32,191 bases of DNA, taken from the NCBI GenBank assembly GCA_004297845.1, contig SCSP01000118.1:1-32191 (forward strand), in the 5' to 3' direction. Below, piece after piece: positions 6,171 through 25,765 of the stretch. This DNA is from Bacteroidota bacterium (GTDB lineage: Bacteria > Bacteroidota > Bacteroidia > Palsa-948). The translations under genes were made by a program, and so were the position numbers. Below the pieces are notes generated by a model, which was given only the letters and a program-made list of their open reading frames with translations, ran no database searches and was not told the DNA's origin. How positions within the stretch are numbered: the first letter of the stretch is position 1; each line of letters starts with the position of its first letter.

Positions 6171-7214
6171 ATGAACATTCATGAAAAATACATGAAATGC
6201 TGCATGGAACTAGCTCAGAACGGCATGGGAAAAGTTGCTCCTAATCCCATGGTGGGTTGCGTAATTGTTCATAAAGATAAAATTATCGGGAAAGGATATC
6301 ATGAGAAATACGGTTTCGCGCATGCTGAGGTGAATGCAATTAATTCTGTAGAGACACGAAATCTTGCGTCTCTGAGAGAGGCAACATTGTATGTCAACAT
6401 CGAGCCTTGTTCTCATTTTGGAAAAACTCCTCCTTGTGCTGACCTTATAATAAAGACAGGCTTTAAATACGTGGTGATTGGTACCCTGGATCCCAATTCC
6501 CTCGTAACGGGAAGAGGGTTGCAAAAGCTGGTCTCTTCAGGTTGCGATGTGAAGGTGGGCATACTTGAAAAGGAGTGCAGGGAACTAAATAAACGATTCT
6601 TTACTTTTCACGAGAAGAAGAGGCCTTATGTAATATTGAAGTGGGCGCAGACGAAAGACAAATACATGGGGATTACAAATTGCAGATTACAGATCACAGG
6701 CCATGAAACAGCCAAGTTGGTGCATCAATGGAGAGGGGAGGAGCAGTCGATAATGGTGGGGACGAACACGGCTTTGACGGACAACCCTAAACTTACAATC
6801 AGAAAGGCAAAAGGGAGTAACCCGACTCGTATTCTTATAGACAGACAATTGAAGATTCCTTCCTCCTTTCATTTGCTGGATGGATCGGTTCCGACCATCG
6901 TTTTTACGTCCCGGAAAATAGCTGCGAAGAAAAACCTTGAATATGTTGTTGTTGATTTTAAAAAGGATACGTTGAAACAGGTGATGCAAGAACTTCACCA
7001 TAGGGAGATACAATCGTTAATCGTTGAGGGAGGAGTACAACTTCTGACTTCATTTATTGAAAATGATCTCTGGGACGAAGCGAAGGTCTTTACAGCTGAG
7101 AAATCATTGTCTGTAAAAGCTGATGGGAGAGGTGCACCAATGATGAAAGCGAAGCGTGTCGGCAGCAAGAAGGTTGGGAGTGATCTGCTGGAGTTATATG
7201 ACAATCGCGAATAA
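6171..7214 (+). CDS. ribD: Bifunctional riboflavin deaminase-reductase RibD
   Basis: HAEVNAI, EPCSHFGKTPPCADLI deaminase motifs; C-terminal reductase IVEGGVQLLTSFI. Confidence 0.97.
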   Translation: MNIHEKYMKCCMELAQNGMGKVAPNPMVGCVIVHKDKIIGKGYHEKYGFAHAEVNAINSVETRNLASLREATLYVNIEPCSHFGKTPPCADLIIKTGFKYVVIGTLDPNSLVTGRGLQKLVSSGCDVKVGILEKECRELNKRFFTFHEKKRPYVILKWAQTKDKYMGITNCRLQITGHETAKLVHQWRGEEQSIMVGTNTALTDNPKLTIRKAKGSNPTRILIDRQLKIPSSFHLLDGSVPTIVFTSRKIAAKKNLEYVVVDFKKDTLKQVMQELHHREIQSLIVEGGVQLLTSFIENDLWDEAKVFTAEKSLSVKADGRGAPMMKAKRVGSKKVGSDLLELYDNRE

Positions 7215-9661: not shown

Positions 9662-9689
9662 AGCCCCCGCCCCTAAAGGGGAGGAATGA
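9662..9689. repeat. Intergenic copy of the GC-rich palindrome
   Basis: agcccccgcccctaaaggggaggaatga. Confidence 0.6.
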
Positions 9690-9743: not shown

Positions 9744-9783
9744 GCCCTTCTTCCCTCTCCTTGAGGAGGGGGTAGGGGTGAGG
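9744..9783. repeat. Intergenic copy of the GC-rich palindrome
   Basis: cgcccttcttccctctccttgaggagggggtaggggtgagg. Confidence 0.65.
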
Positions 9784-9789
9784 TCCTTT

Positions 9790-10349: not shown

Positions 10350-11117
10350 ATGAAAGGAGTCCTGTATTTAATTCCCGTTCCAATCTCCGATGAGGAAGAA
10401 AACTCAGGCTTGGTATATCCTTTGCTGGAATCAACTGTTAACACCCTTTCTGAATTCATAGTAGAAGACCTCAAAACTACCAGGCGTTCCCTCCGTAAAA
10501 TTTTTTTTACAGGCGAATTTGATAAAATGACCTTTCACGTTTTGAATAAACATACGGATACAAAAAGCATTGGAAGTTTTTTAGCCAGTGCTGACAAAGG
10601 AAAAAATATTGGTTTACTCAGCGAAGCCGGTATGCCCTGCATTGCAGATCCCGGAAGTGATATTGTGCGTTTGGCTCACAGCAAAAACATCAGGGTTGTT
10701 CCGCTTTACGGGCAATCCTCCATCTTCTTGGCCCTCGCAGCATCCGGATTGAACGGACAGAATTTTATTTTCCATGGTTATTTGCCGAAGGAACAGAAAG
10801 AGAGGAGAAAGAAACTGAAGGAACTCAGCCCATCCCTGCCTTCCCAAAGGGGAGGTACTACTACAAGTCCTTCTTCCCTTCAGGAAGGATTTAGGACGGG
10901 CTTGGGCTGTACTCACATTTTTATTGAAACTCCGTACCGCAACAACCACCTTTTATCAGATATCCTCTCAACATGTTCTCCCGAAACGCTGCTCTGTGTT
11001 GCCATGAACGTAACCGGTAAATCAGAAATGATCCTCACAAAATCAATTGCGGAGTGGAGGAAGGTGGTGCTTCCAAGCCTTGATAAACAGCCGACTGTGT
11101 TTTTGTTGGGGAGATAG
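10350..11117 (+). CDS. SAM-dependent methyltransferase, RsmI/tetrapyrrole methylase-like
   Basis: GKNIGLLSEAGMPCIADPGSDIVRLAH, VVPLYGQSSIFLALAASGLNGQNFIFHGYLPK, IFIETPYRNN. Confidence 0.88.
   Translation: MKGVLYLIPVPISDEEENSGLVYPLLESTVNTLSEFIVEDLKTTRRSLRKIFFTGEFDKMTFHVLNKHTDTKSIGSFLASADKGKNIGLLSEAGMPCIADPGSDIVRLAHSKNIRVVPLYGQSSIFLALAASGLNGQNFIFHGYLPKEQKERRKKLKELSPSLPSQRGGTTTSPSSLQEGFRTGLGCTHIFIETPYRNNHLLSDILSTCSPETLLCVAMNVTGKSEMILTKSIAEWRKVVLPSLDKQPTVFLLGR
10826..10909. repeat. 84-bp composite palindromic element in-frame inside the rsmI-like gene
   Basis: Outer cagcccatccc...gggcttgggctg, inner cttcccaaaggggag and ccttcttcccttcaggaagg hairpins; encodes SPSLPSQRGGTTTSPSSLQEGFRTGLGC. Confidence 0.85.
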
Positions 11118-11138: not shown

Positions 11139-12071
11139 CTATATATTTTCGAGGGAAAAGGTTTCCTTCAGCCTCACTCCCTTTTCAGTTTTTTGAACTG
11201 TGCAGCACTCGTTAATTGGGTCGTGCTCAAAAAACAAAACGTATTTTTCTTCCGCAGCTTTATTTAGAAACTTTTCTTTTTCTTCCAATGTGATCAGAGG
11301 ACGGGTATCATAACCCATTACATAGGGAAGCGGAATATGGCCGGTTGTAGGTATCAGATCTGCGACATATACAACTGTTTTGTCTTTATATTTGATATGA
11401 GGATGCATCATCGCATCGGTGTGGCCGTGGGAAAATAATACCCCACTCCAACTCTCCCCAAAGGGGAGAGAGCCATACGCCAAACCTTCTCCCCCTTGGG
11501 GGGAGATAAGAGAGGAGGTGGGATAGGTAATGAATTTTAGGTGACCACTTTCTTTGATCGGTAAAATATTCTCACTAAGGAAACTTGCTTTTTCTCTCTT
11601 ATTGGGTTTGGTTGCCCATTCCCAATGTTGCTCGTTACTCCAATAGGTGGCATTCCTGAAGGTAAGTTCAAAATCATCTTTTAAATATACACTCCTGCTA
11701 TCCCCCCTTTGGGGCGTGGGAGGGTGTTTCCATTTCACGCTGCCTCCGCAATGATCAAAGTGAAGGTGTGAAAGAAATACGTCCGTAATATCATTGGAAG
11801 TAAATCCATATTTTCCCAAAGATTTTTCAAGCGTATTGTCACCATGCAAGTAGTAATAAGAAAAGAATTTAGCATCCTGCTTGCTTCCCATGCCATTGTC
11901 AATCAGGATGAGTTTGTTTCCATCTTCTATCAGCAGCGCACGCATGGCAAGAGATATCATGTTGTTCTCATCGGCAGGATTGGTTCTGTTCCAGATGGAT
12001 TTTGGAACCACTCCGAACATAGCGCCTCCATCAAGTTTGAAGTATCCTGTATTTATTGAGTAAAGTTTCAT
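11139..12071 (-). CDS. MBL-fold metallo-hydrolase
   Basis: DVFLSHLHFDHCGG (HxHxDH), FSHGHTDAM, VVYVADLIPTTGH. Confidence 0.92.
   Translation of the reverse strand: MKLYSINTGYFKLDGGAMFGVVPKSIWNRTNPADENNMISLAMRALLIEDGNKLILIDNGMGSKQDAKFFSYYYLHGDNTLEKSLGKYGFTSNDITDVFLSHLHFDHCGGSVKWKHPPTPQRGDSRSVYLKDDFELTFRNATYWSNEQHWEWATKPNKREKASFLSENILPIKESGHLKFITYPTSSLISPQGGEGLAYGSLPFGESWSGVLFSHGHTDAMMHPHIKYKDKTVVYVADLIPTTGHIPLPYVMGYDTRPLITLEEKEKFLNKAAEEKYVLFFEHDPINECCTVQKTEKGVRLKETFSLENI
11441..11524. repeat. Composite palindromic element inside the MBL hydrolase gene
   Basis: ccccactccaactctccccaaaggggagagagcc...ccttctcccccttggggggagataagagaggaggtgggat; two hairpins within outer arms. Confidence 0.82.
11694..11727. 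repeat. Second, shorter palindromic element inside the MBL hydrolase gene
   Basis: ctgctatccccccttttggggcgtgggagggtg-type sequence encoding HPPTPQRGDSRS. Confidence 0.6.
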
Positions 12072-24024: not shown

Positions 24025-24030
24025 GAAGCC

Positions 24031-24103
24031 CAGCCCAACGCTCCCGAGGGGAGGGAGATATGCGTGAAAGTCCTTCCCTTTGGGAAGGATTTAGGATGGG
24101 TTG
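24031..24103. repeat. Intergenic composite palindromic element
   Basis: cccagcccaacgctcccgaggggagggag...aagtccttccctttgggaaggatttaggatgggttg; same layout as 10826-10909. Confidence 0.85.
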
Positions 24104-24988: not shown

Positions 24989-25765
24989 ATGAAATTAGAT
25001 ATACTTGCCTTTGGTGCCCACCCCGATGATGTGGAGCTTTCCTGCAGCGGCACTATTCTTAAAAATGTAGCACTGGGGAAAAGGGTTGGCATTATTGACC
25101 TTACCAGAGGCGAACTTGGCACGAGAGGTACCGTTGCTATTCGTTTAAAGGAAGCTACAAACGCTTCGAAGATATTAGGCGTTTTATTCAGAGAAAACCT
25201 GAAAATGGCTGATGGATTTTTTCAGAACGATAAAAAACACCTGCTTGCAGTTATTAAAAAGATTCGTCAGTATAAACCGGATGTGGTGCTTGCCAATTCA
25301 TTAGAAGACCGTCATCCGGATCATGGCAGATCGGCCAAACTTGTAGCAGATGCCTGTTTTTTGGCAGGTTTGGTGAAGATAAAAACCACACAGCGCACGC
25401 AGCCCCCCCTCCCCTCAAAGGGGGGCTTTGCACGCGCAGGCTCCCCCCCTTCGGGGGGTTGGGGGGCTGGATTTCAGGAACCTTGGCGCCCTAAGGCTCT
25501 TTACCATTATATTCAATATAGAAAGCTAAGGCCCGATTTTGCTGTGGATATTACTCCATTCATGAAAAAGAGGATGAAAGCTATCAAGGCGTTCAAATCC
25601 CAGTTTTTCAATCCTGCGTCCAAAGACCCTAAAACGCTTATATCTGACCCGCAATTCCTTGATTATGTCATTTCGCGTGAGGAAGAGTATGGCAAACTGA
25701 TCAATGTAACATACGCGGAAGGCTTTAATGTTAAGGAGGAATACAAGGGAGAGATTCTGATCTGA
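24989..25765 (+). CDS. bshB1: Bacillithiol biosynthesis deacetylase BshB1-like (PIG-L/LmbE)
   Basis: DILAFGAHPDDVELSCSGTILKNVALGKRVGIIDLTRGELGTRGT; DRHPDHGRSAKLVADACFLAGL. Confidence 0.93.
   Translation: MKLDILAFGAHPDDVELSCSGTILKNVALGKRVGIIDLTRGELGTRGTVAIRLKEATNASKILGVLFRENLKMADGFFQNDKKHLLAVIKKIRQYKPDVVLANSLEDRHPDHGRSAKLVADACFLAGLVKIKTTQRTQPPLPSKGGFARAGSPPSGGWGAGFQEPWRPKALYHYIQYRKLRPDFAVDITPFMKKRMKAIKAFKSQFFNPASKDPKTLISDPQFLDYVISREEEYGKLINVTYAEGFNVKEEYKGEILI
25400..25469. repeat. GC-rich composite palindrome inside bshB1
   Basis: Outer cagccccccctcccc...ggggttggggggctg; inner ccccctt-cgggggg hairpin; encodes QPPLPSKGGFARAGSPPSGGWGAG. Confidence 0.88.

Follow-up and report, generated by a model that had tools for sequence, protein, structure and literature searches.

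What is an 84-bp palindromic stretch doing inside an rsmI-like methyltransferase gene of an uncultured Bacteroidota bacterium, in frame and free of stop codons? The gene lies in a 32,191-nt stretch of DNA, the whole of which we call the window. The original prediction held that the 84 bp are a palindromic element of 28 codons, that the element has the same order of parts as an intergenic copy farther along the window, and that it is dispersed DNA rather than sequence driven by the protein. The features needed to follow the question are these:

10350..11117, plus strand: host gene, RsmI-like SAM methyltransferase (TP_methylase; Pfam PF00590, TIGR00096 below cut-off)
10826..10909, plus strand: two-hairpin element, inserted in frame in the rsmI-like methyltransferase gene (sequence, fold, model match, empty sites)
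24027..24103, plus strand: intergenic copy of the same subtype as the rsmI-like copy (model match, 88 bits)
11440..11520, plus strand: full copy of another subtype, in frame in a metallo-beta-lactamase-fold gene (11139-12071, minus strand; model match, 37 bits)
11699..11727, no strand assigned: half copy, in frame in the same metallo-beta-lactamase-fold gene (orthologue comparison)
25401..25469, plus strand: full copy, in frame in the bshB1 gene (24989-25765; model match, 30 bits)
9663..9686, no strand assigned: half copy in the spacer after dnaA (sequence)
9749..9785, no strand assigned: half copy, with the tail TAGGGGTGAGG, just ahead of the next gene (sequence)

The element lies within the ORF 10350-11117, whose product scored 100.7 bits against TIGR00096 (cut-off 167.9), and it encodes the 28 residues SPSLPSQRGGTTTSPSSLQEGFRTGLGC. 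Its parts run from an outer arm, AGCCCATCC, through hairpin 1, a spacer ending in AAGTCC and hairpin 2 to ATTTAGGAYGGGCT. The 84 bp were predicted to fold into an outer stem enclosing both hairpins (-40.9 kcal/mol, z -4.4), an energy that none of 200 shuffles reached. The intergenic copy at 24027-24103 shares the ends and the order of parts, and it scored 88 bits against 87 for the rsmI-like copy (matched over 10827-10903), figures that are partly so by construction, as the covariance model was built from four copies that included these two. Both the palindromic element and its likeness to the intergenic copy were therefore borne out.

Orthologues in the seven genomes of the genus (the source genome and others labelled G001, G002 and so on) showed which sites lack the element. 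At the rsmI-like site, three of the seven (G001, G005 and G006) are empty and have a short native linker, as do other members of the class that we aligned; a full element is present in the source genome and in G003, a half in G002 and a remnant in G004. The predicted 28 in-frame codons are present, yet the net gain in the protein is only about 19 residues relative to the empty-site orthologues. About nine native linker codons are missing there, so the insertion did more than simply add sequence. A three-gene tree of the site has weak branches (51-94), and the linker may record either one old insertion or repeated insertion. In the predicted structure, the insert (residues 165-184, pLDDT below 50) forms a disordered loop that separates a helix from a strand. 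The G006 orthologue (L014) carries another in-frame palindromic insert (CCTGCCCGTCCGGCAGGCGGGC, ARLPDGQ) at a different site.

Other copies in the window gave similar comparisons. The full copy at 11440-11520 adds a net 18 aa and is missing from G001, G003 and G006, with half copies in G004 and G005; the half copy at 11699-11727 adds a net 13 aa, is common to G005 and is missing from G001, G003, G004 and G006. In the bshB1 gene, whose product matched BshB1 with 285 bits, the net gain relative to five empty orthologues is exactly 23 codons, or 69 nt, which is the unit length. That site is empty in five of the seven genus genomes, and G005 has another subtype in the same linker. Elsewhere in the window, in a RibD-like ORF (6171-7214), the peptide ITNCRLQITG resembles a translated copy of another dispersed repeat (ATTACAAATTGCAGATTACAGAT).

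We then asked whether it is the DNA or the peptide that is conserved. In 35 aligned matches, 19 of 24 base pairs had changed on both sides, and 93.5% of the paired cells could pair compared to 81.7% in shuffles (0 of 500 reached it), figures biased upward by an alignment that was fitted to the structure and in which many copies appear on both strands. Sliding one arm abolished the signal, and the arm sequences vary plainly by eye among copies. The outer stem, AGCCCATCC/GGATGGGCT, forms terminal inverted repeats in which eight of nine pairs changed on both sides. Inside genes, the hairpins fall almost evenly into the three codon phases (24, 23 and 21). The same DNA is thus read as different peptides, which selection on the peptide cannot explain. 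Sequence comparison thus indicates that the DNA is conserved, not the peptide, and that its stems covary. The consensus is open in four of the six frames, which makes the element tolerable within genes.

The element is common in its source genome. A direct BLAST with the element sequence gave 11 genomic hits, and of the 150 candidates that were scored the covariance model matched 87, a count that includes both strands. A 662-kb sample of the genome, some contigs of which were chosen for holding hits or Y1 genes, contained 93 pyrimidine-left hairpins, compared to 2 in a dinucleotide shuffle and 5 in a purine-left control; the density was 140 per Mb in the source genome, 17 in G001 and 9 in other Bacteroidota loci, the last being the control level. 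A narrow covariance model found about 20 distinct loci in the sample, which extrapolates to roughly a hundred copies per genome. The short element was present in all seven genus genomes and in 25 of the 100 class genomes searched, those seven included; copy counts from these further searches are of the matches listed and are to be read as at least. The nearest named records are metagenome-assembled genomes labelled Bacteroidetes bacterium, one of them from groundwater.

Most copies lie in genes. The 662-kb sample held 97 clusters, 71 within long ORFs and 26 outside, and a few of the 71 are native motifs rather than elements (for example in PGK and AspRS); among the 29 best genus copies, 22 fall within ORFs of at least 110 aa. 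In-frame insertions absent from G001 occur in SufC, AspRS, LeuRS (two sites), a UbiD-like protein, a glycosyltransferase and others; here and below, genes without a family search carry the names that we take them to have from recognized sequence motifs. A direct repeat at the borders of 29 copies was no longer than in re-paired borders (mean 1.62 compared to 1.41 ± 0.22, p 0.22), and no target-site duplication was detected in these copies. At two loci (L092 15512-15623 and L097 14045-14154), element halves bracket a short hydrophobic, signal-peptide-like helix that starts a large ORF. The original prediction had proposed searching the genome for further copies and the rsmI-like orthologues for empty sites; both searches were positive, and together with the use of all three phases they uphold its view of a dispersed element not driven by the protein. 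Right about the element, it overlooked the many copies in core genes, the native codons missing at the rsmI-like site, and the nuclease-bearing, full-length relatives described next.

Seeking genes bracketed by hairpins led to a first gene of the DUF559 family. A family search (PF04480) gave 43 matches in the seven genus genomes, and among the 30 of these covered by the flanking count, hairpins lay within 250 nt on both sides of 23 and on at least one side of 28, seven genes being without one or both at the thresholds used. Random 320-bp segments had hairpins on both sides in 3 of 1000 cases, and Y1 loci in 0 of 26. Outside the genus, 10 of 26 DUF559 genes had hairpins on both sides and 23 on at least one, compared to 0 and 1 of 26 for windows 700 nt away. 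The ends themselves are shared: a BLAST with the element sequence matched the right end of a DUF559 element in MutS (C226:9883-9914, 97%, E 1e-8), which matches the intergenic copy of the window over about 30 nt with a single mismatch. The MutS element of G005 has the left end AGCCCATCCCCTAACCCCTTCCCAAAGGGAAGG and the right end TCCTTCCCTTTGGGAAGGATTTAGGATGGGCT. Within single DUF559 elements the outer inverted repeat averages 6.24 nt, compared to 4.73 ± 0.28 when ends were re-paired between copies (0 of 500).

The nuclease core is intact. The residues D46, E57 and D59 (alignment columns) are invariant in 48 of 48 sequences, as are further residues, and the nearest solved structure is PDB 3HRL, an endonuclease-like protein (E 4e-18). 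By Pfam, DUF559 lies in frame in or between the domains of MutS, RecJ, TsaD, RecG and an Acs-type AMP-binding enzyme, and within a SpoIIE/PP2C protein and a MeaB-methylmalonyl-CoA mutase fusion; insert-free homologues are known for Acs, PP2C, the mutase and RluD. Across the class, DUF559 was found in 66 of 119 genomes, often within ORFs of 350 to 1890 aa, among them LeuRS (two sites), MetH (two sites) and Acs, named by motif. By a tally made by hand, DUF559 was present in 17 of the 18 class genomes with the short subtype, compared to 38 of the 75 without (p 4e-4). Against the link, genome G012 had nine model matches, and DUF559 was not found there. In G004 (C114:35449-36333; L321, L334), two DUF559 genes stand in tandem, and hairpins of a single subtype flank each of them.

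Beyond Bacteroidota, a small, unsystematic look at seven plasmid DUF559 genes (Cyanobacteriota, Deinococcota, Sphingomonas), made without a control set, found GC-rich hairpins near each, on both sides in most by eye. The Deinococcus psychrotolerans plasmid gene has a long inverted repeat. On a Synechocystis plasmid (L377), a hairpin-flanked DUF559 gene has a hypothetical ORF on one side and a pglX (BREX methyltransferase) ORF on the other, and may split the gene. Phages were rejected as carriers: the exact core motif was found in none of 2.9 million viral contigs, and the only one that encodes a near DUF559 relative showed no clear flanking hairpins.

We consider it probable that the 84-bp stretch is a MITE-like, internally deleted, non-autonomous derivative of a DUF559 nuclease element with hairpin ends, likely mobilized in trans. 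The link between the short element and DUF559 draws on position, shared ends and co-occurrence, and the mobilization is our inference from these sequences. Each end is a pyrimidine-left, purine-right hairpin, and the outer tails are complementary (AGCCCATCC...GGATGGGCT), so that folding of a single DNA strand can bring the two ends together. In the presumed autonomous form, a DUF559 gene (Vsr-like, PD-(D/E)XK fold) lies between the two hairpins; the form of 70-85 bp lacks the gene. The nuclease would recognize the hairpin ends and cut at or beside them, or cut the empty target; the element would then be copied or joined into a new place without target duplication, with the short copies mobilized in trans. 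Copies in genes would survive where they keep the frame, are free of stops and fall in loops, and would be translated as disordered surface loops, as predicted for the rsmI-like host. Inserts occur in essential genes, from which we infer that the host proteins still work. To our knowledge, no known transposition chemistry relies on a PD-(D/E)XK nuclease alone, and movement may therefore require a further factor.

How does this compare with known systems? The palindromic elements of Rickettsia and Wolbachia (RPEs) measure up to about 150 bp, lie in frame in many unrelated conserved genes, where they are tolerated, and also occur between genes (PMC2229807, PMC10969869). In-frame insertion in many unrelated genes and empty sites in relatives are found here too. 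The present element differs from RPEs, which we compare from their descriptions, in belonging to another phylum, in its shorter two-hairpin plan, and in having a nuclease-bearing form with the same ends, a partner that the RPE reviews PMC2229807 and PMC10969869 do not name. MITEs are short non-coding derivatives with terminal inverted repeats and ends in common with a longer coding element (PMC10969869). The present element likewise has terminal inverted repeats and a longer coding form with the same ends, the DUF559 form in MutS for example, but target-site duplication was not detected, and the coding form has a PD-(D/E)XK nuclease gene where no DDE or Y1 transposase was seen. REPs within genes are reported from Opitutus terrae, Rickettsia conorii and other bacteria; over half of these form dimers or groups that encode 20-30 aa, and a CGTC-type REP occurs in Bacteroidetes without a dedicated transposase (PMC3733652). 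The inverted hairpin doublet with a short spacer recalls REPINs, whereas the GTAG/CGTC foot was not seen, no inspected Y1 transposase adjoined the element, and the partner gene is DUF559. As with homing endonuclease genes and inteins, a nuclease gene sits in frame in conserved genes (MutS, RecJ, LeuRS, MetH, TsaD) at recurrent sites with empty alleles. Unlike those, it has hairpin ends; no Hint/splicing (intein) domain was among the Pfam matches of eight DUF559-fused proteins (E 1e-5), and homing by itself would not be expected to leave many short copies at unrelated sites. In the parts of the sources available to us, DUF559/Vsr-like endonucleases (Caulobacter VsrA, PMC12907096; PDB 3HRL) are treated as stand-alone, repair-type nucleases; the domain here is the same (3HRL) and has the invariant D...E-x-D core, but we propose a mobile role for it.

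The comparison points to a known kind, a palindromic MITE/RPE-like element, of which the DUF559-bearing form with the same ends would be so far undescribed. The open-access literature, to which our search extended and from which subscription journals are excluded, yielded no earlier description of the element, and its accessible portions reported no mobile role for DUF559. We lean, with somewhat less assurance than for the origin of the short element, towards regarding the short and DUF559 elements as a new class of mobile element, in which matching hairpin ends enclose a single Vsr-like PD-(D/E)XK nuclease gene. Such elements would settle in frame in essential genes without splicing and be present in at least four phyla, and their deleted short form, at about a hundred sites or more in some genomes of Bacteroidota, would still be adding loops to proteins.

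The chief rival is that the element is an independent MITE moved by some other transposase, and that DUF559 is a homing-type gene that has repeatedly settled, as a passenger, in these safe, pre-adapted elements. As a homing gene would, DUF559 recurs in different genomes at matching linkers of LeuRS, MetH, Acs and RecJ; one LeuRS linker, occupied by DUF559 in other families, has just a half element in the source genome; and many class genomes have DUF559 but no short copies of this model. The recurrent sites fit this rival. The shared and matched ends fit it less well: left and right ends agree better within a DUF559 copy than between copies, as in a single unit, flanking hairpins reappear on the plasmids of Cyanobacteriota, Deinococcota and Sphingomonas, and Y1 transposases, the obvious alternative mobilizer, show no link. 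We judge the passenger arrangement rather unlikely. A REPIN/RAYT system, in which a Y1 (HUH) transposase mobilizes inverted pairs of REPs, would also have two inverted hairpins, a short spacer and no target duplication, and six of the seven genus genomes have Y1_Tnp genes. But those inspected that have palindromes nearby carry others (GCTCCATAGGAGC, GTCCCGTAGGGAC and so on), and none of the 26 testable Y1 loci has the element's hairpins on both sides; the Y1/HUH transposase was rejected as mobilizer within the genus. The model places the element at only one of 32 Y1 loci, about 900 nt away, G001 has copies although Y1_Tnp was not found there, and in place of a GTAG/CGTC tag at the hairpin foot the spacer beside hairpin 2 is mostly AAGTCC, often CTACAAGTCC (listed copies, by eye). 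This explanation seems to us very improbable.

The strong RNA fold could suggest that the insert is removed or skipped at the RNA or translation level, by splicing or ribosome bypass, its sequence being irrelevant to the protein. However, the in-gene copies found keep the frame, and among the 26 clusters outside ORFs, examined for frame-broken insertions as a sign of such removal, none lies in a clearly frame-broken copy of a G001 gene, a modest test given that only 17 had homology nearby and that the ORF-based scan itself favours frame-keeping copies. Nor did any part of the window match Rfam, and we regard removal as still less credible than the Y1 route. Chance, or protein-driven low complexity, could account for the richness of the encoded peptides in S, P and G, but is refuted by the equal use of three frames, the intergenic copies, the covariation and the empty sites, which leave it next to no probability.

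If the short element does derive from a DUF559 element, the widespread DUF559 nucleases, which annotation mostly lists as of unknown function or as repair enzymes, would gain a suggested role. Many orphan palindromic repeats, which are annotated as odd insertions rich in Ser, Pro and Gly, would likewise gain a partner. The long-standing question of how selfish DNA can extend essential proteins with new peptide segments while the host survives becomes testable, and a nuclease element that is directed by hairpins and keeps the reading frame on insertion could also become a tool.

Different palindromes accompany some other genes. At L348 (1477-1815), a DUF559 gene is flanked by copies of a different palindrome, CCTGCCTGCCGGCAGG. 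The Y1_Tnp (RAYT-like) genes of the genus (L039-L046, L217-L240) lie mostly between palindromes of their own, such as GCTCCATAGGAGC, GTCCCGTAGGGAC, CCACGACCTTTAGGTCGTGG and CCCCGACATTTATGTCGGGG, and a CGTC-tagged-looking repeat (ACGTCATTGC...GCAATGACGT) at about 1145-1255 of L043 is also present in the source genome.
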